Program-made: the position numbers and the translations under genes | IMG/VR virus record: IMGVR_UViG_3300007735_000731 | Span: 1 to 41,729 of that record | From: a virus | Reading direction: 5' to 3' (one strand) | Length of the DNA stretch: 41,729 bases | Shown: positions 2,706 through 41,729 of the stretch, piece after piece | Layout of the letters: every line of letters starts with the position of its first letter | How positions within the stretch are numbered: the stretch's first letter is position 1 | Notes under the pieces: model-generated | Databases searched by the model: none | What the model saw: the letters and a program-made list of their open reading frames with translations, nothing else | Told to the model about the DNA's origin: nothing

Positions 2706-4439
2706 TTGTTAACAGTCAAAGAGATAGCGGCTAAGGTATCGCGTCTACAGACGCGCTATGCCGCACGTGACCAACGGATGCGCGATGTGCTATCCGTACG
2801 TCAGGGTGATATTGGCAAGGTATATCCTACAATGTTCTCCGAGGAATACCCCAAGCCATTAGTCGCTAACTTCATTGACGTTGCCGCACGCGACCTAGCA
2901 GAAGCAATGGCACCACTTCCTACCTTCAACTGCTCAGCAACCAATATGGTCTCCGACAGCGCACGCAAGATGGCAGATACCCGTACCCGTATTGCTAACT
3001 ATTACTCCGCGTCATCTGACCTACAAATCCAGATGTACACAGGCGCAGACTGGTTCAATACTTACGGTATGTTGCCAGCAATGGTCGAGATTGATTACGA
3101 GACCAACAGTCCCCGTATCCGTCTACTCAATCCTTTTGGTTCCTACCCAGAAATTGACCGCTTCGGTCGTTGTATCTCAATGACTCAGGTGATTACTACC
3201 GATGCAGAAACCCTAGCATCACAGTATCCAGAGTTCTACGACATCATTGTTGGTAAGACTCAATACACATCTGGTTCGCCATATATCGATATGGTCCGTT
3301 ACCACGACAAGTACCAAGATGTTCTCTTCCTTCCTAACCGCAACAACCTTGTTCTAGCCAAGACTGAGAATCCTATCGGTCAATGTATGGCACGTGTGGC
3401 TACTCGCTACTCGATTGACAACGAAGCACGTGGACAGTTTGATGATGTCCTAGCAGTACAACTTGCTCGTGCTCGCTTTGCTATCTTGCAGATTCAGGCA
3501 GCAGAGAAGTCCATCCAAGCACCGATTGCTATTCCACAAGATGTGCAAGAACTCGCTCTTGGTCCTGATTCCATCCTTCGTTCTGCTAACCCACAAGCAA
3601 TTCGTCGCGTACCGCTAGAACTTCCTAACAATGTCTTTGCTGAGTCAGGCGTACTTGAACGTGAACTTCGTGTAGGCGCTCGTTACCCAGAGGTTCGCTC
3701 CGGTAACATCGACGCATCTGTAGTGACTGGACGAGGAGTCCAAGCACTCCAGGCAGGATTTGATACGCAGATTAAATCTGCACAAGCACAGTTTGCACGC
3801 CTATTCACTGAGCTTATCGGTCTGTGCTTTGAGGCAGACGAGAAGATATTTGGCGCTATGCAAAAGACTATCCGTGGTATCGATGATGGTACCCCGTACA
3901 TCTTAAAGTACATTCCATCCCGCGACATCAAGGGCGATTATGCAGTCGATGTACGCTATGGAATTATGTCGGGTATGGACCCGAACCGTGCAGTGATTGC
4001 GTTGCTACAAATGCGTAGCGACAAGATGATTTCCCGCGACTATGCTCGTCGGGAACTTCCTATCGACATCAATGTTACTCAAGAGGAGCAACGAATTGAC
4101 ATCGAGGAAATGCGTGACTCGCTACGAGTCGCTGTGGCGCAATACGCCCAAGCAATCCCTTCACTGGCGGCACAAGGTCAAGACCCATCTGAGGTTATCA
4201 ATCGCATAGCATCCGTGATTCAAGGCCGCCAGAAGGGTCAACAGTTAGAAACCATCGTGGAGAAAGCATTTGCTCCTGCGCCACAACCAGCGCAACCGAT
4301 GGCCCCTGAAGTTTCAGCAGCGGGTGCGGCCCCCACAACTGCCTCGCAGGTTCCTCCCGCTCAACCCGGTGCGGCCCCTGCTGCTGAGCAACGTCCCGAT
4401 ATAGCACAGTTACTAGCCGCCATAGGCGGAGCAGCGTAG
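2706..4439 (+). CDS. Portal protein
   Basis: A 577-aa protein following the terminase. Its place and composition (early MRDVLSVRQGD, many charged helical segments, a long alpha-helical crown-like C-terminus, then a Pro/Ala/Gln-rich tail from about residue 510) fit a phage portal, the dodecameric ring at the DNA entry vertex. The start is TTG at 2706, preceded by AAGTAAGGAAC; no ATG is available nearby. The last 70 residues are low-complexity PAQP/AAPA sequence, probably disordered. The family is called by position and overall character, not by a catalytic motif. Confidence 0.8.
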   Translation: MLTVKEIAAKVSRLQTRYAARDQRMRDVLSVRQGDIGKVYPTMFSEEYPKPLVANFIDVAARDLAEAMAPLPTFNCSATNMVSDSARKMADTRTRIANYYSASSDLQIQMYTGADWFNTYGMLPAMVEIDYETNSPRIRLLNPFGSYPEIDRFGRCISMTQVITTDAETLASQYPEFYDIIVGKTQYTSGSPYIDMVRYHDKYQDVLFLPNRNNLVLAKTENPIGQCMARVATRYSIDNEARGQFDDVLAVQLARARFAILQIQAAEKSIQAPIAIPQDVQELALGPDSILRSANPQAIRRVPLELPNNVFAESGVLERELRVGARYPEVRSGNIDASVVTGRGVQALQAGFDTQIKSAQAQFARLFTELIGLCFEADEKIFGAMQKTIRGIDDGTPYILKYIPSRDIKGDYAVDVRYGIMSGMDPNRAVIALLQMRSDKMISRDYARRELPIDINVTQEEQRIDIEEMRDSLRVAVAQYAQAIPSLAAQGQDPSEVINRIASVIQGRQKGQQLETIVEKAFAPAPQPAQPMAPEVSAAGAAPTTASQVPPAQPGAAPAAEQRPDIAQLLAAIGGAA

Positions 4440-10048: not shown

Positions 10049-11529
10049 TGGCAGTCACTCTTGAAAGTTATCTCAACGATAACGCTACTGTTAAGGCTGC
10101 TCGCAAGAAGTACAATCAGGCCAAGGCGCTGTATAACCAACTCAAGAGTGCACCTGTTCCTCCCGGAGCGGGCACCACTCAACAGCAAGTCAATACCCGT
10201 TTGGCAGCACTTCAGGAAGAGCTAGATAAGGCACAGGCCCAACTGGCCGATGCTGAACAGAAGGCTAGTGCGTACTTCGCTAAGAACCAAACGACAATCA
10301 ATAAGAAGGCTGAGCGTAAAGCCACAGCAGACTTGCAGTCTAAACTGGATGATGCTATTCGCTATCGCCAGCAGTTACAGAATCAGGGTCTATCTACTGA
10401 AGTTATCGATGGACAGATTGCTAACATCAATGCCCAGATAAACAAGACTGGTCGTTATGCTCCACCACCAGTGGGAGCAGCAGAAGAGCGCCGTCCGTCA
10501 ATGGCACCAGCGCCGTTTGACCTCAATGGGTATATAGCTCAAGTATCACAGATGATTGCAACAGCCGGCCAAGGTGTTGCTTCTATGACTCCGGAACAAA
10601 GACTTGACCTTTCTACCCGACTCAAAGATGCTGGATATAAAGTTGACCCAAGTGCTAACTATAGCAATGACCTAGTTAACGCATATACCCAAGCGCTACA
10701 AGAGACTGTTACCCGCAGTCGTGATTTCAAGCGTGAATATGGCGTAGAGGAATTACTCTCTGCTAAAAAAGCAGAAGGTGCAGGTGGTGATGGAACTAGC
10801 ACTACCCTTACTTATACCGATTTCACTGGTAGTAATGCTGCTGGGACTATCAATGCTTCATTCCAGTCCTTACTTGGTCGAGACGCTACACCAAAAGAAA
10901 TTACTAGCATTTCCAAAAAAGTCAAATCAATTCTCGATAAGACTCCTGGGAAGACTGTTACTGAAAAGGATGCTTCTGGCAGGTTAATAACTCGCACCAC
11001 TCCTGGCGTCAATGTTGGTCAAGTTCTCTCTGAGATTATTAAGACCCTTCCGGAGTACGAGAAGCGCAAGGCTGGTGAGCGTGGTCTCATTGAGCAAAAC
11101 CTCGCAGCATCTGCTCGGGCTAATGGACTAGATATCACTAAAGACTTTGGCGCCAAGACTGTAGAAGGATGGATTAACCGGATTCAGAATGGCGAAAAAG
11201 AAGAAGTATTCACTAACCTTATCCGCCAAACTGCAAAGATTGGTATGCCAGATAACGTCAAGAAGATGGTTGATGATGGCCTAGACCTAGAGACTATCTA
11301 CGCTCCATACAAGCGCGTGATGGCAGGAACGCTAGAAGTAGACCCTGCGTCTATCAGTCTGGATGACCCAACTCTTCGTGGAGCCATCACTCCAGAAGGA
11401 GAAGTGCCTATCTATAACTTCCAACGTTTGCTTCGCAAAGACCCACGTTGGGAATATACCAACAATGCCCGTGACGAGGTGGCGCAGATTACTCAGCGCA
11501 TCCTCAAAGACTTCGGATTCCAGGGGTAA
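10048..11529 (+). CDS. Putative internal virion / head protein with coiled coil (493 aa)
   Basis: The N-terminal 130 residues are strongly helical and Gln/Ala/Lys-rich (ALQEELDKAQAQLADAEQKA), typical of a coiled coil. The middle contains a Pro-rich linker (about 140-160) and Ser/Thr stretches (250-280), and the C-terminus is globular. ATG overlaps the stop of the giant gene (TAATG). With its neighbours it probably forms the internal or ejected protein set. No enzymatic motif was identified. Confidence 0.6.
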   Translation: MAVTLESYLNDNATVKAARKKYNQAKALYNQLKSAPVPPGAGTTQQQVNTRLAALQEELDKAQAQLADAEQKASAYFAKNQTTINKKAERKATADLQSKLDDAIRYRQQLQNQGLSTEVIDGQIANINAQINKTGRYAPPPVGAAEERRPSMAPAPFDLNGYIAQVSQMIATAGQGVASMTPEQRLDLSTRLKDAGYKVDPSANYSNDLVNAYTQALQETVTRSRDFKREYGVEELLSAKKAEGAGGDGTSTTLTYTDFTGSNAAGTINASFQSLLGRDATPKEITSISKKVKSILDKTPGKTVTEKDASGRLITRTTPGVNVGQVLSEIIKTLPEYEKRKAGERGLIEQNLAASARANGLDITKDFGAKTVEGWINRIQNGEKEEVFTNLIRQTAKIGMPDNVKKMVDDGLDLETIYAPYKRVMAGTLEVDPASISLDDPTLRGAITPEGEVPIYNFQRLLRKDPRWEYTNNARDEVAQITQRILKDFGFQG

Positions 11530-12818: not shown

Positions 12819-13289
12819 ATGTCCAATCAATGGGATGACGATGACGATGATGATTACACCGCTCCAGAGGTGAATAACGACCTCGTTAAGCAATTACGCA
12901 AAGCCAACAAGCAGAAGGAAAAAGAACTAGCCGAACTTAAGGCTAACTTTGAAAGTCTGAACAAGGCGCAAAGAGAGCGTGCAATCAAGGACGTCTTAAC
13001 ATCTCGCGGGATTAACAGCAAGATTGCTGCATTTATCCCAGGCGATATCGACGCATCAGAAGATGCAGTATCGCGCTGGCTCGACGATTATGCCGATGTA
13101 TTCGGCATCGAACAGCCAAACCAAGCGACTCCAAATGTGGACCCCAATCAGGCAAAGCAATATCAGAAGATGACGCAGACCGTAGAGCAAGGGCTTAGCC
13201 CTGACGCTGGTGATGACATTATGCGCCGTCTGATGAACGCTAACACCAAAGAAGAATTGGATGCCGTCATTCGGGAGTCTGGACTCTAA
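12819..13289 (+). CDS. Capsid scaffolding protein
   Basis: A 156-aa protein immediately upstream of the major capsid gene. It has the typical scaffold make-up: an extremely acidic N-terminus (seven Asp in a row at residues 5-11), a charged coiled coil at about 20-55 (LRKANKQKEKELAELKANFE), and a helical C-terminus that would contact capsid subunits. Scaffolds guide procapsid assembly and leave before DNA packaging. Called by position and composition. Confidence 0.75.
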   Translation: MSNQWDDDDDDDYTAPEVNNDLVKQLRKANKQKEKELAELKANFESLNKAQRERAIKDVLTSRGINSKIAAFIPGDIDASEDAVSRWLDDYADVFGIEQPNQATPNVDPNQAKQYQKMTQTVEQGLSPDAGDDIMRRLMNANTKEELDAVIRESGL

Positions 13290-36396: not shown

Positions 36397-36426
36397 AGCC
36401 CCGCCGCAGAGAGACGGGGCTTACTT
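36391..36426. terminator. Convergent hairpin terminator between early and leftward operons
   Basis: AAGCCCCG pairs perfectly with CGGGGCTT, extended by AAGTA/TACTT around one bulged A, with an 11-base loop. It lies between the rightward FmdB gene and the end of the leftward transglycosylase gene, where transcripts from both sides meet. The T-runs are short, so termination may be partial. Confidence 0.75.
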
Positions 36427-36484
36427 GTGTAGCGGAGCGGAAAGGGTAAGAATACGCTCAACGCTACAACTCTAGTGTATCACA

Positions 36485-36937
36485 TCAGTACCAGGGTTTG
36501 CCTCTTGACTTTTGCTTTTGCCAGAACGAGAGCGCCCGACAGGGAGAACCGTAACGGTGGCTAATGTATCGTAGTCCTTTGAGGATTTGGAGAGCTGGCT
36601 CGCTCTCTTCCTCTTTGAGTAGTTGGGCAATGCCAAAGGCACTGCTTCGAGGATTGTCCGCCTTGGAATCAAACCGGCTCTCACTGGTCCAAAGCGACTC
36701 AAGGCATACCCACTGACGGCCCGTCCAGCCAAAGCCTGCCCTCGCATACGCCTTAGCCATCTTCCTATTTTCACGCTTCTGCTCCTTCGTATCCTTTGTT
36801 GCTACTGGTGTTGGTGTTGGTGTGGGCTTGGGCGGGTGGAATCTCGCCCTCTCCCACTGTTCTGTATGGGGAAGTATAAGTACGGCTAGTGCCAGCGTAA
36901 GAACGAACGCCAGCACTAGCCTGCGTTTATGGGTCAT
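36485..36937 (-). CDS. Membrane-anchored lytic transglycosylase-like protein
   Basis: A 150-aa protein with a basic start MTHKRRLVLAFV, one hydrophobic segment (about 7-22), a Thr-Pro linker PKPTPTPTPVAT and a C-terminal SLT-like domain: CLESLWTSESRFDS with the candidate catalytic E86, then SSAFGIAQLL, YISHRYGSPCRALSFW. Such domains cut glycan strands of the wall. It is leftward and last in its operon, separate from the M15 endolysin, so the phage has two wall enzymes under different control. Could also be a tail-independent superinfection or egress factor. Confidence 0.85.
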   Translation of the reverse strand: MTHKRRLVLAFVLTLALAVLILPHTEQWERARFHPPKPTPTPTPVATKDTKEQKRENRKMAKAYARAGFGWTGRQWVCLESLWTSESRFDSKADNPRSSAFGIAQLLKEEESEPALQILKGLRYISHRYGSPCRALSFWQKQKSRGKPWY

Positions 36938-37017
36938 CGGTTTATCTTTTCCTCAATCACCATTACTAGCCACGCAACGACGATAACTACCAGCGTGCCT
37001 ATGATTACTTCCCTCAC
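36934..37017 (-). CDS. 27-aa transmembrane microprotein before the transglycosylase
   Basis: MREVIIGTLVVIVVAWLVMV then IEEKINR: one hydrophobic helix with charged ends. GTG start overlaps the stop of the upstream gene (GTGA), and its own stop overlaps the transglycosylase start (ATGA). GGGAGGGAGAGAGG lies upstream. Tight coupling suggests a small holin-like or regulator partner of the transglycosylase. Confidence 0.6.
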   Translation of the reverse strand: MREVIIGTLVVIVVAWLVMVIEEKINR

Positions 37018-37226
37018 CCTCTCTCCCTCCCTAGAACTATTGCCTGTCGTATCAGTTCGGTTATCTCTATCCGGTCAGAAGGTGGAGCTGGTTCTTCGTA
37101 CCAAGTACGGATATAGATTTTCGTATCCGGATACTTGAGCAGATACTTGAGCACGCTCTCTTCCACATTGGTAAATACCGATGACTTATCCGGTACCTTT
37201 ATCTCATACTGTATTGACTTGTTCAT
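37014..37226 (-). CDS. 70-aa hypothetical protein
   Basis: MNKSIQYEIKVPDKSSVFTN then LKYLLKYPDTKIYIRTWYEE. Mixed alpha/beta small protein, coupled by GTGA to the membrane microprotein and overlapping the gene upstream by 23 bases. Unknown. Confidence 0.7.
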   Translation of the reverse strand: MNKSIQYEIKVPDKSSVFTNVEESVLKYLLKYPDTKIYIRTWYEEPAPPSDRIEITELIRQAIVLGRERG

Positions 37227-37395
37227 CTATCTCCGCCTTCTGCTTGTGAATACCCATCTCTAGGTACTTCACCATAGACATTAGCTCATTGACTATCTCT
37301 TGCCCGCTTCCTCCTTGCGAGCCGAGCATACGCTCGGCGTTGCGCTTATGAAGTAGCCCTCTCTCGAAGAGATAGTGCGCTGTTGGGTCGCTCAT
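37204..37395 (-). CDS. 63-aa helical protein
   Basis: MSDPTAHYLFERGLLHKRNA then IVNELMSMVKYLEMGIHKQK. All-helical, charged. Starts two bases after the upstream zinc-ribbon stop, with GAGGAGG inside the upstream coding end as ribosome-binding site. Unknown. Confidence 0.68.
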   Translation of the reverse strand: MSDPTAHYLFERGLLHKRNAERMLGSQGGSGQEIVNELMSMVKYLEMGIHKQKAEIDEQVNTV

Positions 37396-37397
37396 AG

Positions 37398-37502
37398 TTA
37401 TTCCTCCTCACATAACTCACAGGTATTATCTCCGTTGATTATCCTTAGTGGGTCGGTGTTGGTGTCTCCACACCACGCGCAGGTGTAAGTCATTACACTC
37501 AT
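37398..37502 (-). CDS. 34-aa zinc-ribbon microprotein
   Basis: MSVMTYTCAWCGDTNTDPLR then GDNTCELCEEE: two CxxC pairs 20 residues apart, a complete zinc ribbon in a minimal protein. TAATG overlap with the upstream gene. May bind RNA, DNA or a host protein. Confidence 0.68.
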   Translation of the reverse strand: MSVMTYTCAWCGDTNTDPLRIINGDNTCELCEEE

Positions 37503-37642
37503 TAGAAGTCCTCCATTATCCGGTCATAGGCCGCGTCTGGGTCTGGTTCCCCACACGGACACTCAGTAGGTATCCGTTCGCACCGCTCACAAATATCCTC
37601 TTTCCCTAGCGAATAGGGGTCTTCGAGAATTGGCTCAGGCAT
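37502..37642 (-). CDS. 46-aa cysteine-containing protein
   Basis: MPEPILEDPYSLGKEDICER then CERIPTECPCGEPDPDAAYD. Four Cys (CERC...CPC) suggest metal binding. The start is set by the TAATG overlap at 37642; longer upstream starts would run through the previous gene. Confidence 0.65.
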   Translation of the reverse strand: MPEPILEDPYSLGKEDICERCERIPTECPCGEPDPDAAYDRIMEDF

Positions 37643-37953
37643 TACTCGCCCACCTCCTCTTCTGCTGGTTCGGTAGGGTTGTGAAACTGGCAGAAGGCTA
37701 GACCTTCCCACAGTATTCCACCCTCGCTATTCCAATCTATCTCGCCGCCGCACTCGGTACAGCTACCCTTATCCTCTTCCTCTTTGGGTAGGTCAATCTT
37801 CTTGAGCGCCTTCTCTACCGCCTTACGCCAGTCTTTGGCGTAGCCCTCCGCTACCGGTAGCCGGTTAGGGTCTGGGTCGGTCAGGTCATAGAGTGAAACC
37901 AGCCACCCGTACTCGTCCTCCTTGAGCGTTACTACTAGTGCGTGCTCTCTCAT
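37642..37953 (-). CDS. 103-aa protein with zinc-ribbon end
   Basis: N-terminal beta domain (MREHALVVTLKEDEYGWLVS), a helix with Lys and Glu, then GSCTECGGEIDWNS...FCQFHN with Cys/His metal ligands. The acidic end EPAEEEVGE encodes the ribosome-binding site for the next gene. TAATG overlaps on both sides. Confidence 0.72.
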   Translation of the reverse strand: MREHALVVTLKEDEYGWLVSLYDLTDPDPNRLPVAEGYAKDWRKAVEKALKKIDLPKEEEDKGSCTECGGEIDWNSEGGILWEGLAFCQFHNPTEPAEEEVGE

Positions 37954-38093
37954 TATGCGCTCACCTTCTCAAAGTCATTTATAGGAACATATAGCCCCGT
38001 ATAAATTACTATCTGCCCCTCGTTATCCTGCTCGATAGAAGCCCAAGGAAAGGTTCTCTCTATCGCCTCGCGTAACTCTTCTGTGTATCTCAT
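37953..38093 (-). CDS. 46-aa hypothetical protein
   Basis: MRYTEELREAIERTFPWASI then GQIVIYTGLYVPINDFEKVSA. TGATG overlap at the start and TAATG at the end. The final codons AAG GTG AGC GCA carry the ribosome-binding site for the next gene. Confidence 0.7.
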   Translation of the reverse strand: MRYTEELREAIERTFPWASIEQDNEGQIVIYTGLYVPINDFEKVSA

Positions 38094-38263
38094 CACGCGC
38101 CCACCTTCTCCACACTTAGATAGCCCTCGTTCTCAGGATAACCGCACGAGCAGATTTCCATATCGTGCGAACCATTAGCTCTGAAAATAACCTCTCGCAA
38201 CTGAGGGTTATCACATTGAGGGCAGGAATAATATCCCTTGTCTATAATTCGTGATTCTCTCAT
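38093..38263 (-). CDS. 56-aa zinc-ribbon protein
   Basis: MRESRIIDKGYYSCPQCDNP with CPQC, then HDMEICSCGYPENEGYLSVE with CSC, a small zinc ribbon. Start at 38263 by TAATG overlap. Ends KVGA, with the ribosome-binding site for the next gene in the last codons. Confidence 0.7.
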   Translation of the reverse strand: MRESRIIDKGYYSCPQCDNPQLREVIFRANGSHDMEICSCGYPENEGYLSVEKVGA

Positions 38264-38415
38264 TATGCGCTCACTTCCTCTCGTGGACAATCTGCATAGG
38301 GGAAGTATTCCTGCTCCTCACACGAACACCAGTTGAAAATTTCAACTTGTGTGGCGTGAGTGAGGTCTACCATCTCCTGCCAAGAGTAACTCTTCTGCGA
38401 TAGGTCTTTACTCAT
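38263..38415 (-). CDS. 50-aa hypothetical protein with Cys residues
   Basis: MSKDLSQKSYSWQEMVDLTH then IFNWCSCEEQEYFPYADCPR and EEVSA. The three Cys may bind metal. ATGA overlap with the upstream membrane gene. Its end has GAGGAAGTGAGCGCATAATG, giving coupling to the next gene. Confidence 0.68.
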   Translation of the reverse strand: MSKDLSQKSYSWQEMVDLTHATQVEIFNWCSCEEQEYFPYADCPREEVSA

Positions 38416-38540
38416 TTCGTACCCTTTCGTACTCGTTCTATTCCTCGATGGTGGAACTCTTCCGCCATCTCCAGCAAGCGTAGCCCGCCCAGTATTGCCA
38501 GTAAAGTAAGCGCTCCCCAGAGCGCTAGTCCGTAGTCCAT
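38412..38540 (-). CDS. 42-aa membrane protein
   Basis: MDYGLALWGALTLLAILGGL is one hydrophobic segment, followed by an Arg-rich cytoplasmic tail (RLLEMAEEFHHRGIERVRKG). TAATG overlap before and ATGA after. Role unknown. Confidence 0.65.
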   Translation of the reverse strand: MDYGLALWGALTLLAILGGLRLLEMAEEFHHRGIERVRKGTK

Positions 38541-38698
38541 TACGCGAACTCCTTACTACACTCGGCGCAGACCTGATAGGAGACCAACTCGCCGCCTGCC
38601 TCCTCGTCGGTGTAGGAACCAACGGCGGGGCGCGTGAGGCACCACGCACAGTCTCCCACGCGATAGCCCCAGACCTTCTCTAATTCTTGAGTAGTCAT
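38540..38698 (-). CDS. 52-aa zinc-ribbon protein
   Basis: MTTQELEKVWGYRVGDCAWC then SYQVCAECSKEFA: CAWC and CAEC pairs 23 residues apart. TAATG overlaps before and after it. Probably a small metal-stabilised adaptor. Confidence 0.68.
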   Translation of the reverse strand: MTTQELEKVWGYRVGDCAWCLTRPAVGSYTDEEAGGELVSYQVCAECSKEFA

Positions 38699-39006
38699 TA
38701 CGCGTTCACCTCCTCCGCTACCTTGTCGAGATAGTGGCGGGCGATATCATCCCATACGCTGGAGCCTTGGGCGAGCAATAGTTGGCGAATCAGTAACCCG
38801 CCTACCTCTCTGTCTTCTAAGTCTTCCCGTGTTGCCACCTGCTCAATGTAGTCCTCGAACTCTTCTCGAAGTCTATCGCTTAGGGCGGTCATACTCTCCG
38901 CCTCGTGGGCGTAGCCCATTACCTCCTCGAACGCCTCGCGGGTGTTATCCACTACGAGAGTGTAATCGTTTACGAACTGCTCTCTTGCTGTAATCACTGT
39001 AATCAC
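38698..39006 (-). CDS. 102-aa acidic helical protein
   Basis: GTG start at 39006 with GGGAAAGG about 8 bases upstream; a longer in-frame start at 39123 would run through the hairpin spacer and overlap the previous gene. The helices are acidic (MTALSDRLREEFEDYIEQVA). It ends DKVAEEVNA, where the codons include the GGAGG ribosome-binding site of the next gene. Confidence 0.65.
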   Translation of the reverse strand: MITVITAREQFVNDYTLVVDNTREAFEEVMGYAHEAESMTALSDRLREEFEDYIEQVATREDLEDREVGGLLIRQLLLAQGSSVWDDIARHYLDKVAEEVNA

Positions 39007-39049
39007 TTGCCTACCCTTTCCCGTTCTAGGTCGTTCGCCTAGTGTCCGG

Positions 39050-39082
39050 CTACCTCCTAGGGTACTCGCCCCTAGGAGATAG
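39050..39082 (-). ncRNA. Intergenic 13-bp RNA stem-loop (spacer element S6)
   Basis: Minus-strand CTATCTCCTAGGG (39082-39070) pairs with CCCTAGGAGGTAG (39062-39050) around a 7-base loop. It is placed soon after the stop at 39090 in an 83-base spacer and before GGGAAAGG/GTG at 39006. It shares the outer CTATC/GGTAG arm with three other spacer hairpins of this operon. Confidence 0.75.
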
Positions 39083-39089
39083 TCAAGCA

Positions 39090-39272
39090 CTATCGAAAAG
39101 TAATTCGTGTCGCGTTCACCCACGCCTGCCCCTCTCCCCCTTCTGGGGTAACGAGGTAGCGCGGTTCGCCATAACTAGACTTTCCGTCTAGTATCCGCAC
39201 CGGAACCCGAAACGCCTCACTTCGTAAATATCCGACTTGTCCGATTCGTCCGGCTAGTTCTGATAGTTTCAC
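39090..39272 (-). CDS. 60-aa hypothetical protein
   Basis: MKLSELAGRIGQVGYLRSEA then RILDGKSSYGEPRYLVTPEG and WVNATRITFR: a small beta-barrel-like pattern. GTGA overlap with the upstream gene. TAG at 39090 is followed by the hairpin spacer. Confidence 0.68.
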   Translation of the reverse strand: MKLSELAGRIGQVGYLRSEAFRVPVRILDGKSSYGEPRYLVTPEGGEGQAWVNATRITFR

Positions 39273-39442
39273 TTGCCCGTCTCCTCAATCCATAAGTAGG
39301 GAAAATCTCGTGTTACTTTCCACTCTTCCAGCACTACTTCTGCCTCTTCCCGTGTCGCGTAATCTAATCGGGAGGAGAAGCGGGCGTATTGCCTCGCCCG
39401 CTTAGGGTCATCGTATGCCCCGTGTACTGTGTACTTCTTCAC
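39269..39442 (-). CDS. 57-aa hypothetical protein
   Basis: MKKYTVHGAYDDPKRARQYA then YATREEAEVVLEEWKVTRDF is a beta-alpha fold pattern seen in small phage proteins. GTG start and GTGA overlap on both sides. Confidence 0.66.
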   Translation of the reverse strand: MKKYTVHGAYDDPKRARQYARFSSRLDYATREEAEVVLEEWKVTRDFPYLWIEETGK

Positions 39443-39549
39443 GCGCTCACTTCCTCTTTACAATCGGGGCAGATACCCTCTCGCCCGTCGTGGTAGTTCT
39501 CCCGACATATTTCGCACCCGTTGAGGCAGTCGCCTAGATGTAGTTTCAC
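39439..39549 (-). CDS. 36-aa zinc-binding microprotein
   Basis: MKLHLGDCLNGCEICRENYH then GICPDCKEEVSA, with five Cys (C8, C12, C15, C27, C30). GTG start in a GTGA overlap. The EEVSA end encodes GAGGAAGTGAGCGCGTGA, the coupling signal for the next gene. Confidence 0.62.
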   Translation of the reverse strand: MKLHLGDCLNGCEICRENYHDGREGICPDCKEEVSA

Positions 39550-39683
39550 TTACCCGCCCTCTCTCTCTTTATCTTCGCGAGGAGGCTCTGAATAGCCTTC
39601 TCTCTTCCGTCTCCCCAAGTTCCCACCTTGTCAAACTCTAGGGCGCTCACAATCAGGCGCCACTCTTCTGGTGTTAGGTTCAC
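39546..39683 (-). CDS. 45-aa helical protein
   Basis: MNLTPEEWRLIVSALEFDKV then REKAIQSLLAKIKRERAGK. Two helices, basic end. GTG start inside the TGA of the previous gene, preceded by GGAGGTGAGCGC. Unknown. Confidence 0.64.
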   Translation of the reverse strand: MNLTPEEWRLIVSALEFDKVGTWGDGREKAIQSLLAKIKRERAGK

Positions 39684-39898
39684 GCGCTCACCTCCCCCTC
39701 CTGAATTAGGGATGACCAGCGCCCGCTATGTTCCTCAATCAACGGCGCCCACTGCCCGCTATACCCGCACCAGTCGCAGAAGAGTTTGACTACGCGCTCA
39801 CCCTTTACCTCAGTAATCACATATTCTGCCCTCTTTCCGCACTCGCACTCGATGTTATCGAGATTCCATACTTTCTTACCTTCGATGATGTATGCCAT
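39680..39898 (-). CDS. 72-aa zinc-ribbon protein
   Basis: MAYIIEGKKVWNLDNIECEC then FCDWCGYSGQWAPL: two Cys pairs (CEC, CDWC) around a beta segment, and the EGEVSA end that holds GGAGG for the next gene. AGAAAGGGTAG precedes ATG at 39898, directly after spacer element S5. Confidence 0.7.
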   Translation of the reverse strand: MAYIIEGKKVWNLDNIECECGKRAEYVITEVKGERVVKLFCDWCGYSGQWAPLIEEHSGRWSSLIQEGEVSA

Positions 39899-39933
39899 TT
39901 TCTACCCTTTCTCTTTCTGGGGCTAGTTCCCCA

Positions 39934-39965
39934 CCACCCCCGCCCGCTTACGCGGGCGAGGATAG
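39934..39965 (-). ncRNA. Intergenic 14-bp RNA stem-loop (spacer element S5)
   Basis: Minus-strand CTATCC then TCGCCCGC, tetraloop GTAA, GCGGGCGG then GGGTGG; all 14 pairs form (four G-T). It sits in the 74-base spacer after the stop at 39973 and is followed by a second small hairpin TGGGG/CCCCA (loop AACTAG) and the AGAAAGGGTAG ribosome-binding site. Confidence 0.78.
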
Positions 39966-39972
39966 AAGACTA

Positions 39973-40164
39973 CTAGACCGCTTTGATGATGTTCGCGTAA
40001 AGACCTAGCCCGCCCTGAGCCTTGACCATCGCCCGCGCCTTGCTTAGCGCCTCTTTCTTCGTGTATCCGTAGAACGAGGAAGACCCCGCGTAATCGTCTC
40101 CCGCATAAGCGGTTACTATCCACGCGCCCTCGCTGTTCTTTCCTGCCGATAGCTCTATCTTCAC
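39973..40164 (-). CDS. 63-aa hypothetical protein, MKIEL type
   Basis: MKIELSAGKNSEGAWIVTAY then YGYTKKEALSKARAMVKAQG: a beta-hairpin plus helix, like small dsRBD-like or antitoxin-like folds by appearance. GTG start after AGAAAGGGTAG. Shares the MKIEL start with the gene upstream, perhaps distant paralogues. Confidence 0.68.
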   Translation of the reverse strand: MKIELSAGKNSEGAWIVTAYAGDDYAGSSSFYGYTKKEALSKARAMVKAQGGLGLYANIIKAV

Positions 40165-40208
40165 TTTCTACCCTTTCTCTCTTTTTGAGTTGCTACTCTA
40201 GCTACTCA

Positions 40209-40240
40209 CTACCCCCGCCGGATTTCGCCGGCGAGGATAG
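40209..40240 (-). ncRNA. Intergenic 13-bp RNA stem-loop (spacer element S4)
   Basis: Minus-strand CTATCC then TCGCCGG, loop CGAAAT, CCGGCGG then GGGTAG; all 13 pairs form (two G-T). In the 83-base spacer after the stop at 40248. A second weaker hairpin TGAGT/ACTCA with inner GCTA/TAGC follows before AGAAAGGGTAG. Confidence 0.8.
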
Positions 40241-40247
40241 AAAGCCT

Positions 40248-40433
40248 CTAGGCGTTGAGCTGTGCTAATAGCTCGTTCCTCTTTACCGCTTTTTGGTATT
40301 CCTGAACGATGCCCTCTAGTTGCTCAAGGCTTAGGTCAATTCGGGAAAAATCATCTAGAGTTATCCAGCAGATATAGCTGGTAACAATAGTTACACCTCT
40401 CACTAAGTTATTCGCGTCTAGCTCTATCTTCAT
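40248..40433 (-). CDS. 61-aa hypothetical protein, MKIEL type
   Basis: MKIELDANNLVRGVTIVTSY then IDLSLEQLEGIVQEYQKAVK, a beta strand plus helices. Starts after AGAAAGGGTAAGAA. Its spacer on both sides holds a stem-loop. Unknown function. Confidence 0.66.
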   Translation of the reverse strand: MKIELDANNLVRGVTIVTSYICWITLDDFSRIDLSLEQLEGIVQEYQKAVKRNELLAQLNA

Positions 40434-40466
40434 TTCTTACCCTTTCTCTATTGGGGCTAGTTACCC

Positions 40467-40506
40467 CCTACCCATCTCAGAGATTACCGCCCCTGAGAAG
40501 GATAGG
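40467..40506 (-). ncRNA. Intergenic RNA stem-loop (spacer element S3)
   Basis: Minus-strand CCTATCC/GGGTAGG (7 bp) continues through one T-T mismatch into TCTCAG/CTGAGA (6 bp) with a 12-base loop. In the 79-base spacer after the stop at 40513. The following GGGG...CCCC arm (loop TAACTAG) overlaps the outer stem, so two folds are mutually exclusive. Confidence 0.75.
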
Positions 40507-40512
40507 CAATTA

Positions 40513-40656
40513 CTAGCGTTGCTCCCTTTCTGCTCGTTGCGTAATACGATTCAGGTCAGTCAGTTTGCGAAAGAGTGCTAGCAGGTCTGCCTCTTTGGTG
40601 ATGTCTAACCGGCTCACCTCTGCCACCCACTCTAGAAACTGCTCTTGTGTATTCAT
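40513..40656 (-). CDS. 47-aa helical protein
   Basis: MNTQEQFLEWVAEVSRLDIT then LLALFRKLTDLNRITQRAER: a helical, charged protein. Starts after AGAAAGGGTAGCG, downstream of hammerhead element 2. Unknown. Confidence 0.66.
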   Translation of the reverse strand: MNTQEQFLEWVAEVSRLDITKEADLLALFRKLTDLNRITQRAEREQR

Positions 40657-40675
40657 CGCTACCCTTTCTCTCTCT

Positions 40676-40729
40676 GACCTCGTCAGTACCGGCCCTACCG
40701 GTAGACACCCCTTGCGGGGTGTTTCGGTC
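40676..40729 (-). ncRNA. Type II hammerhead ribozyme 2
   Basis: Minus strand, 5' to 3': stem II strand GACC (40729-40726), core GAA plus A15.1 (40725-40722), stem III A-CACCCC / GGGGTG-T closed by a GCAA loop, C17 at 40704, stem I TACCGG/CCGGTA with loop TAGGG, core CTGACGA (40686-40680), stem II strand GGTC (40679-40676). All conserved hammerhead positions (C3 U4 G5 A6 N7 G8 A9, G12 A13 A14, A15.1-U16.1, H17) are present. Predicted cleavage lies between 40704 and 40703. The G of the upstream gene's TAG stop is the first ribozyme base, and AGAAAGGG and ATG 40656 follow. Confidence 0.93.
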
Positions 40730-40950
40730 TAGTTCATCCCTAGCGCCGCGTAGAACTTCTTACTATCAAACCGCGGGTTATTCTCTGCTAGCGCCAGAAC
40801 GAGGCGGCTAATTGTATTCTCTGCCCCTTGTAGCCGCATAGCGTTCAGTTCTGCTAACGGCGCGTTCTCTGGATACGCCGCCACCTCGACAATATAGTCG
40901 CGGTAAACGCGTAGCCCTCGAGCTATCACCTCGTAATCTTTCTTAGTCAT
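40729..40950 (-). CDS. 73-aa hypothetical protein
   Basis: MTKKDYEVIARGLRVYRDYI then PLAELNAMRLQGAENTISRL and NNPRFDSKKFYAALGMN, a pattern often seen in small phage proteins of actinobacterial hosts. The start at 40950 is set by AGAGGGGGGATATT. Flanked by hammerhead 1 upstream and hammerhead 2 downstream. Confidence 0.72.
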   Translation of the reverse strand: MTKKDYEVIARGLRVYRDYIVEVAAYPENAPLAELNAMRLQGAENTISRLVLALAENNPRFDSKKFYAALGMN

Positions 40951-40981
40951 AATATCCCCCCTCTCTACCCTTTCCCCTGAT

Positions 40982-41035
40982 GGCCTCATCAGTACCCGCC
41001 CTACGGGTAGACGCCCCTAGCGGGGCGTTTCGGCC
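40982..41035 (-). ncRNA. Type II hammerhead ribozyme 1
   Basis: Minus strand, 5' to 3': stem II strand GGCC (41035-41032), GAA and A15.1 (41031-41028), stem III A-CGCCCC / GGGGCG-T with loop GCTA, C17 at 41010, stem I TACCCG/CGGGTA with loop TAGGG, core CTGATGA (40992-40986), stem II strand GGCC (40985-40982). Every conserved core base is present, and predicted cleavage is between 41010 and 41009. Relative to copy 2, stems I, II and III each carry compensatory base-pair changes. It begins at the last base of the upstream stop codon. Confidence 0.95.
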
Positions 41036-41208
41036 TAGCCTAGTTTGGTGAGGTCTGAGAATTGACCGCGAAACCAGATATCGGTGGGCTGGATGGCGAT
41101 TCCTCGCGCCTGAAGAAGTAGACAGATGTCGTTCTTGATTCCTAATAGTTGAGCTGGTGTTGCCTCAAAATTGACGGCTAATTGGCCGCCGAGTGTCTTA
41201 GTGTTCAT
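41035..41208 (-). CDS. First gene of the leftward operon (57 aa)
   Basis: MNTKTLGGQLAVNFEATPAQ then LGIKNDICLLLQARGIAIQP and TDIWFRGQFSDLTKLG. Mixed alpha/beta, no family recognised. AGAGAAAGGGTAAAG lies before ATG. Its TAG stop runs into hammerhead ribozyme 1. Confidence 0.7.
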   Translation of the reverse strand: MNTKTLGGQLAVNFEATPAQLLGIKNDICLLLQARGIAIQPTDIWFRGQFSDLTKLG

Positions 41209-41225
41209 CTTTACCCTTTCTCTAG

Positions 41226-41279
41226 GTGGCCAGTATTGGCCACTAGGAGGAGACTACCGCCTATAGGCCATAGGGTCAA
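41226..41279 (-). promoter_or_regulatory. Candidate promoter and leader hairpin of the leftward operon
   Basis: Minus strand TTGACC (41279-41274), 17-base spacer, TAGTCT (41256-41251, TANNNT). Next in the leader is GTGGCC/GGCCAC with a six-base loop (41226-41243) just before the ribosome-binding site. Upstream, the tandem repeat AAATGGTCA (41286-41294 and 41295-41303, plus strand) could be an operator. Confidence 0.42.
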
Positions 41280-41375
41280 GTCAAGAAATGGTCAAAATGG
41301 TCATAGATTTTAGAGTCGATATGTCGACAATTTATGGGCGCTATTCGTACAGATGTTCGAACGGGTGAGAGGTCA

Positions 41376-41437
41376 TAAGTTACCGGCGAGAGGGTTTGAG
41401 TAACTTACGGGAGCGTAGGTTACCGGTGGGTAACTTA
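41376..41437. repeat. Cluster of inverted GTAACTTA/TAAGTTAC sites
   Basis: TAAGTTAC (41376-41383) is an inverted copy of GTAACTTA (41400-41407). A second pair, TAGGTTACC (41416-41424) and GGTAACTTA (41429-41437), forms a hairpin with a GGTG loop. Four sites lie within 62 bases in a gene-free stretch next to the genome junction, as expected of an origin, packaging site or operator cluster. Confidence 0.6.
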
Positions 41438-41450
41438 GGGGCGAGGGGTA

Positions 41451-41478
41451 GGCGCCGGAGGTTATTAGGCGCCGGAGG
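41451..41478. repeat. Direct repeat GGCGCCGGAGG at the genome junction
   Basis: Two 11-base copies (41451-41461 and 41468-41478), 17 bases apart, include the palindrome GGCGCC. The second copy equals the first bases of the window. It may be a packaging or circularisation mark, or merely a local duplication. Confidence 0.55.
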
Positions 41479-41729
41479 GGCAGGCCGCCCTTCCCTCTCC
41501 AATAGACCCAACGCCTAGACGCCTCGTCCAATTCTAGGGCGCTCGCCGCGCCCCCGCCCCCCTCGCGTACGCGTAGGAAACCGACCCCGTGGTGGTAAAT
41601 TGCGCGCGGGCTATATATGTACTCCCCAACAAAATATCTCCACTAAAGTCAACCCTTATGTCCGTATTTGCCCTACTTTACGGTGTGAGGTGTACCACAT
41701 TCCTAAACTTTTTTTCCCAAAAACAGACA
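41468..41729. repeat. Right copy of the terminal repeat
   Basis: Repeats bases 1-260 with a different C-run (12 bases with an internal G), C instead of T at 41681 and C instead of A at 41728. These differences show that the copies come from slightly different molecules or error-containing reads. No gene is seen here. Confidence 0.9.

Follow-up and report, generated by a model that had tools for sequence, protein, structure and literature searches.

Intercistronic cutting of phage RNA is well illustrated by the early mRNA of phage T7, in which RNase III cleaves the spacers between cistrons and leaves gene-sized, hairpin-ended messages. Self-cleaving RNA is also found in bacterial mRNAs, as with the glmS ribozyme, which resides in a 5' leader, is activated by a ligand and produces a 5'-OH message, with a destabilising effect. 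Type II hammerheads, the ribozymes of interest here, are clustered in prophages of Clostridium scindens, Azorhizobium caulinodans and Agrobacterium tumefaciens (Perreault et al. 2011, PMC3088659). The same study demonstrated that tandem or clustered phage-type hammerheads cleave in vitro, and those of A. tumefaciens also in E. coli, and it proposed and partly tested the idea that serial hammerheads cut phage transcripts into gene-length mRNAs. According to a 2017 review, the role of prokaryotic hammerheads is an open question (PMC6155905). Type II hammerheads, the prophage clusters that they form and the idea of single-gene mRNAs are therefore known (PMC3088659, PMC6155905), and the original prediction for the present locus, that serial, stop-codon-fused use had not been described, stands in its second half only: serial use was published in 2011, while no account of stop-codon fusion was found in the open-licence papers searched, and the main text of PMC3088659 makes no mention of stop codons. 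Those open-licence papers likewise yielded no description of a stop-codon rule, of arrays of about ten ribozymes in cultured phages, or of a covarying core-tail hairpin, and priority for these is not certain.

The locus described here, with its two ribozymes W1 and W2, shares with T7 the cutting of spacers in polycistronic phage RNA, but the cutter in T7 is a host protein, whereas self-cutting by the RNA is predicted here. With glmS it shares a predicted self-cleavage that gives a 5'-OH message, although its sites are intercistronic and have no known ligand. Like the type II hammerheads of Rfam family RF02276 (PMC3088659), which occur in phages and prophages, W1 and W2 possess the core, three stems, an open stem II and the C17 site, and score above the cut-off; in contrast to most, not all, of the usual members, which form a pseudoknot between loop I and the tail, they have a short loop I (TAGGG) and a tail that complements the core. 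As in the clustered prophage hammerheads, for which processing of a long phage RNA was proposed (PMC3088659), several ribozymes flank single genes or short blocks. Here, however, every unit starts on the upstream stop codon or beside it and ends just before the ribosome-binding site, and arrays in relatives reach 11 ribozymes in one operon.

The Phage and Its Small-Gene Operon

The window, meaning the whole stretch analysed, is IMG/VR virus record IMGVR_UViG_3300007735_000731, positions 1 to 41,729 (41,729 bases). It contains a tailed phage gene set, including terminase, major head protein, helicase, primase and sigma-like genes, and encodes collagen-like and glycine-rich tail proteins. Among terminases from phages whose host is stated, those of Streptomyces phages come closest to its own (42-43% identity), and megablast of positions 17000-41729 against 50,697 phage genomes returned no match. 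An operon of small genes at the right end reads leftwards (Table 1). PHROG scans of its small proteins produced nothing convincing; ORF1 had no match, and the best match of ORF3 was weak (E 0.038). With one mismatch allowed, the leader motif GAGAAAGGGTA occurs 7 times in the window against 0.65 expected, always on the minus strand, between 39012 and 41222, and before seven operon starts. Hammerheads occupy just two spacers of this operon.

Table 1. Genes, leader regions, ribozymes and predicted alternative hairpins of the operon (window coordinates)
Feature	Position	Strand	Details
ORF1	41035-41208	minus	57 aa (open frame of 57 codons); TAG stop 41037-41035, last base common to W1
ORF2 leader	40960-40976	minus	GGGAAAGGGTA motif 40976-40966 and purine-rich ribosome-binding region
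ORF2	40729-40950	minus	73 aa (73 codons); between W1 and W2; TAG stop 40731-40729, last base common to W2
ORF3 leader	40660-40670	minus	GAGAAAGGGTA motif / ribosome-binding region; common to genes of the operon
ORF3	40513-40656	minus	47 aa; downstream of W2
Ribozyme W1	40982-41035	minus	Complete type II hammerhead, from sequence; RF02276 40.0 bits, match 40975-41035
W1 stem II	41035-41032/40985-40982	minus	GGCC/GGCC
W1 GAA	41031-41029	minus
W1 stem III	41028-41022/41017-41011	minus	ACGCCCC/GGGGCGT
W1 C17	41010	minus	Predicted cleavage between 41010 and 41009
W1 stem I	41009-41004/40998-40993	minus	TACCCG/CGGGTA, loop TAGGG
W1 core	40992-40986	minus	CTGATGA
W1 alternative hairpin	40977-40992	minus	Core CTGATG 40992-40987, loop AGGC, tail CATCAG 40982-40977; excludes active core
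Ribozyme W2	40676-40729	minus	Complete type II hammerhead, from sequence; RF02276 39.2 bits, match 40668-40729
W2 stem II	40729-40726/40679-40676	minus	GACC/GGTC
W2 stem III		minus	ACACCCC/GGGGTGT
W2 C17	40704	minus	Predicted cleavage between 40704 and 40703
W2 stem I		minus	TACCGG/CCGGTA, loop TAGGG
W2 core	40686-40680	minus	CTGACGA
W2 alternative hairpin	40674-40686	minus	Core CTGAC 40686-40682, loop GAG, tail GTCAG 40678-40674

Two Type II Hammerheads With Intact Cores

W1 and W2 are co-directional and flank ORF2. In both, stems I and III are closed by loops while stem II is formed by the two ends, which is the type II layout, and direct reading finds the catalytic core (CUGANGA, GAA, A15.1-U16.1, H17) intact. 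Both exceed the RF02276 gathering cut-off of 37 bits, with E-values, computed over the whole window and 4227 families, of 7e-5 for W1 and 1e-4 for W2; no other RNA family rose above its cut-off in the window, and none appeared in 36400-41729 even at E ≤ 1. Sequence and covariance model, the latter proposed beforehand as a check, agree with the original prediction on core, stems and cleavage-site positions, and identify W1 and W2 as type II hammerheads with intact cores. The covariation of the stems between the two copies, claimed at the same time, is real on re-reading, and the first base of each ribozyme is indeed the last of the TAG that closes the upstream 57- or 73-codon frame. Its placement just before the next start also holds, with the distances to the ATG corrected from 32 and 20 to 31 and 19 bases. 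A search limited to canonical base complementarity found none of at least 3 bases between loop I and tail in W1 or W2.

A Covarying Hairpin Between Core and Tail

Two features of these ribozymes had been overlooked or misjudged: the 3' tails, complementary to their own catalytic cores, had been missed, and the difference at N7 had been attributed to a position free to vary. The T or C at N7 is matched by A or G in the tail. Minimum-energy folds of W1 and W2 lack stem II and pair the core with the tail (CUGAUG/CAUCAG and CUGAC/GUCAG, respectively). Active and alternative folds are predicted at -29.4 and -30.2 for W1 (gap 0.8 kcal/mol) and at -25.8 and -25.9 for W2 (gap 0.1 kcal/mol), energies that exclude the tertiary contacts of the active core. 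Because the alternative fold has the lowest predicted energy in both copies, part of the RNA may stay uncut. Among the matches listed, the alternative fold of relatives is lower by a median of 2.4 kcal/mol in class A and 0.1 kcal/mol in class B.

The pairing is not confined to this phage. Among the matches listed, 92 of 417 dissimilar ribozymes have UCAG no more than 25 bases from the core, against 28 expected from shuffles. Since the core CUGA is invariant, N7 is the informative position, and its combinations with the tail base among the listed matches are C-G 31 and T-A 34, with C-A 4 and T-G 8 as wobbles (P = 6e-10). The association holds with one ribozyme per contig (P = 2e-7) and is absent from ribozymes without the UCAG motif (P = 0.75), again among the matches listed; on these two grounds relatedness and general composition were rejected as its source. 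A neutral difference at N7 was rejected on the covariation itself. In the class whose tail motif is clear of stem II, the listed matches comprise C-G 11, T-A 17 and 2 others, with 28/30 Watson-Crick (P = 3e-7). The motif falls partly within stem II in 35 of the 92 listed cases, and W2 is one of them, so the case for a core-tail pairing is weaker for W2 than for W1. In the 5-bp hairpin, an alignment-based count over 13 distinct sequences supports one variable pair only, since invariant core bases take part in the other four.

At the level of sequence, the core-tail pairing and its covariation are firm. Within an earlier set of 283 ribozymes, the matches listed include 39 with a core-complementary tail only, 105 with a loop I-tail pseudoknot only and 2 with both, and the two features appear almost mutually exclusive. 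The predicted 3' product of W1 and of W2 carries two adjacent hairpins, stem I and the core-tail hairpin. With its N7 covariation, the latter represents a structural state absent from the Rfam model, and it would explain why a core position hitherto regarded as unconstrained carries the base it does.

The Stop-Fused Slot and Serial Arrays in Relatives

Our own descriptor, which demands an exact core, at least 4 pairs in stems I and III and at least 2 in stem II, returned at least 296 raw matches in 2.86 Mb of fetched loci and 0 in the same sequence reversed. With the core relaxed and strong stems required, 230 intact cores were found among the matches listed, 2 with one change and 2 with two; stems that outlast a lost core in related phages, named beforehand as evidence against the ribozymes, are thus not the pattern that the relatives show. 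Although intact-core patterns served to fetch many loci, 156 of 512 ribozymes fit none of them, so fetch selection cannot explain the conservation of the core. The cores are under strong selection, while the stems vary freely. Among relatives by capsid protein, ribozymes are patchy, with 6 of 43 records at E ≤ 0.001 and 2 of these above the cut-off, among the matches listed.

Placement was scored in 352 of 386 viral type II hammerheads less than 88% alike, those preceded by an open frame of 45 codons or more, the whole sample being drawn from the matches listed. The distance from the end of the upstream stop to G12 is 3-9 bases in 241/352 of these listed cases, the stop of 98/352 lying at exactly -4 like that of W1 and W2, and the next start follows stem II by a median of 25 bases. 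A stop 3-9 bases before G12 was also found in 17/26 listed members of a bacterial-genome set. Where a stop triplet stands at -4, it shares the frame of the longest ORF in 101 of 138 listed cases, one third being expected for random frames. TAA (110), TAG (103) and TGA (45) all serve as stops among the listed matches, bacterial-genome cases included; what is placed is therefore the stop rather than a fixed RNA sequence. By these counts, the stop-fused slot is a general rule among viral type II hammerheads.

Serial arrangement is common as well. Among the matches listed, 94 of 327 loci with ribozymes have at least two, none of the 327 has them on both strands, and the median spacing within arrays is 578 bases. 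ORFs in the slot survey were called mechanically, and the annotated Streptomyces phage Janus (loci L175 and L550, the latter NC_054660.1, 30000-50632) provides an independent check. By its deposited gene table, Janus has 11 unannotated type II hammerheads in one operon (L550 11905-19166), ten detected by the descriptor and the eleventh through Rfam (44.7 bits, gap 16918-17013 of L550, L175 11928-11990). From gp54 to gp78, all ten gaps of at least 79 bases carry hammerheads, and in the remainder of the operon genes overlap or almost touch. The upstream stop in Janus is often 12-15 bases away and not fused, so the spacing rule is looser there. Its relative Sentinel, also a Streptomyces phage, has 7 hammerheads by the descriptor, and no paper on hammerheads in Streptomyces phages was found among open-licence texts. 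To judge from these predictions, hundreds of phages share this layout, with as many as about eleven ribozymes in a row.

Two smaller observations belong to these phages. Janus L550 holds one further hammerhead-like stem set with two mismatches. In Sentinel (L551), gaps 10626-10675 and 13014-13051 have a hammerhead-like beginning (AAGGCGAAACCTCCTGG...GGAGGTC) whose 3' half is absent within the annotated gap; the missing half may overlap the next gene or may have been lost.

Probable Processing Between Cistrons and Alternative Readings

The likely function of W1 and W2 is processing in cis between cistrons, with the core-tail hairpin locking the cleaved product. Each ribozyme would fold in its spacer during right-to-left transcription and cut once. 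At the 3' end of the upstream mRNA, a few bases would then separate the stop codon from the stem III hairpin, which would carry a 2',3'-cyclic phosphate; the downstream mRNA would open with a 5'-OH and, immediately, the stem I hairpin, with the ribosome-binding site a few bases on. ORF1, ORF2 and ORF3 would thereby become separate, hairpin-capped messages with independent decay. In the released 3' product, the former core would pair with the tail, blocking re-ligation and forming a second 5' hairpin; together with stem I, this hairpin would impede re-ligation and protect the new 5' end. That cleavage takes place in infected cells, gives separate messages and affects stability is what we infer from this arrangement, and the core-tail hairpin probably acts as a post-cleavage lock in a subset of ribozymes. 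Since hundreds of phages share this layout, these viruses probably divide a single long message into gene-sized pieces with no need of an enzyme.

The N7-tail covariation is compatible alike with a lock and with a bistable switch, in which the core-tail hairpin would form on uncut RNA, compete with stem II and make the ribozyme a regulated rather than a constitutive cutter, with transcription speed, temperature, Mg2+ or the position of a ribosome on the overlapping stop setting the fraction cut. The near-equal folds of W1 and W2, the lower alternative fold of the listed relatives, the conserved N7-tail pairing and the stop codon within stem II, where a terminating ribosome would presumably cover that stem, all favour a switch. 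However, a post-cleavage lock predicts the same pairing, no ligand or signal is known, and the tail is transcribed last, so that stem II has the chance to fold ahead of it. This order of transcription is the reason why the lock is preferred, and a switch seems rather unlikely. A bolder proposal, which we hold at most tentatively and consider somewhat less likely again, is a widespread, self-occluding phage subclass, defined by CUGAN with an N'UCAG tail, covarying N7 and bistability, whose cut depends on the ribosome terminating at the stop in stem II; if it were true, phage operons would use arrays of translation-timed RNA cuts.

Two further readings fare worse. The elements might be chiefly stable hairpins whose task is to shield mRNA ends or keep genes apart, cleavage being incidental or lost, and ordinary long hairpins do fill the same slot in neighbouring spacers of the operon; yet W1 and W2 both score as full hammerheads, and among the listed matches cores are almost unchanged (230 versus 2) while stems vary freely, which leaves this explanation highly improbable. 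Circular or re-ligated RNAs, such as a circle with ORF2, could replace linear mRNAs, given that ORF2 is flanked by two ribozymes and that hammerheads are able to ligate. The possibility is named in PMC3088659, but its authors sought such products and detected none; moreover, the core-tail hairpin would disfavour ligation and many-ribozyme operon arrays suit serial cutting better, and circles are the least probable reading of all. For processing in cis, the rule of stop codon, ribozyme and ribosome-binding site, the conserved cores and the Janus arrays render the hypothesis directly testable. If it is confirmed, some phages cut polycistronic messages by RNA alone, a job usually credited to host RNases.

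Other Spacers and the Upstream Region

Further spacers of the operon (40512-40434, 40247-40165, 39972-39899 and about 39095-39005, minus strand) have a recurring long stem-loop, CTATCC...GGGTAG, in the hammerhead slot, often followed by a second hairpin, e.g. GGGGTAACTAGCCCC, and similar copies exist in the close relatives L083, L084, L087 and L088. Degraded hammerheads or another known ribozyme were considered for these spacers and rejected, Rfam being empty at E ≤ 1. Over all loci, the generic hairpin pattern CTATCC...GGTAG occurs 100 times versus 112 in reversed sequence; since it is no commoner than in the reversal, the hairpin is credible only in the window and its close relatives. These stem-loops could possibly be RNase III sites, as in T7. 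A homologue of the window's ORF4 with 50% identity (L084, 3958-4149) is directly followed by a hammerhead at 4155 (region 3958-4215), whereas an ordinary hairpin comes next to ORF4 in the window; the same slot can therefore hold a hammerhead or another hairpin. Ribozymes and genes are apparently shuffled among phages.

Upstream of ORF1, at 41345-41360, lies a LexA/SOS-box-like site, TCGAACATCTGTACGA, with one mismatch to TCGAACNNNNGTTCGA (0.05 expected), and the relative L097 (contig of L086) has a perfect one. The site suggests damage-responsive control and an actinobacterial host. Non-coding positions 41376-41437, upstream of the operon, hold four GGTAACTTA-like copies, distributed over both strands within 62 bases; a comparable cluster is present in L097, and the copies are possible binding sites.
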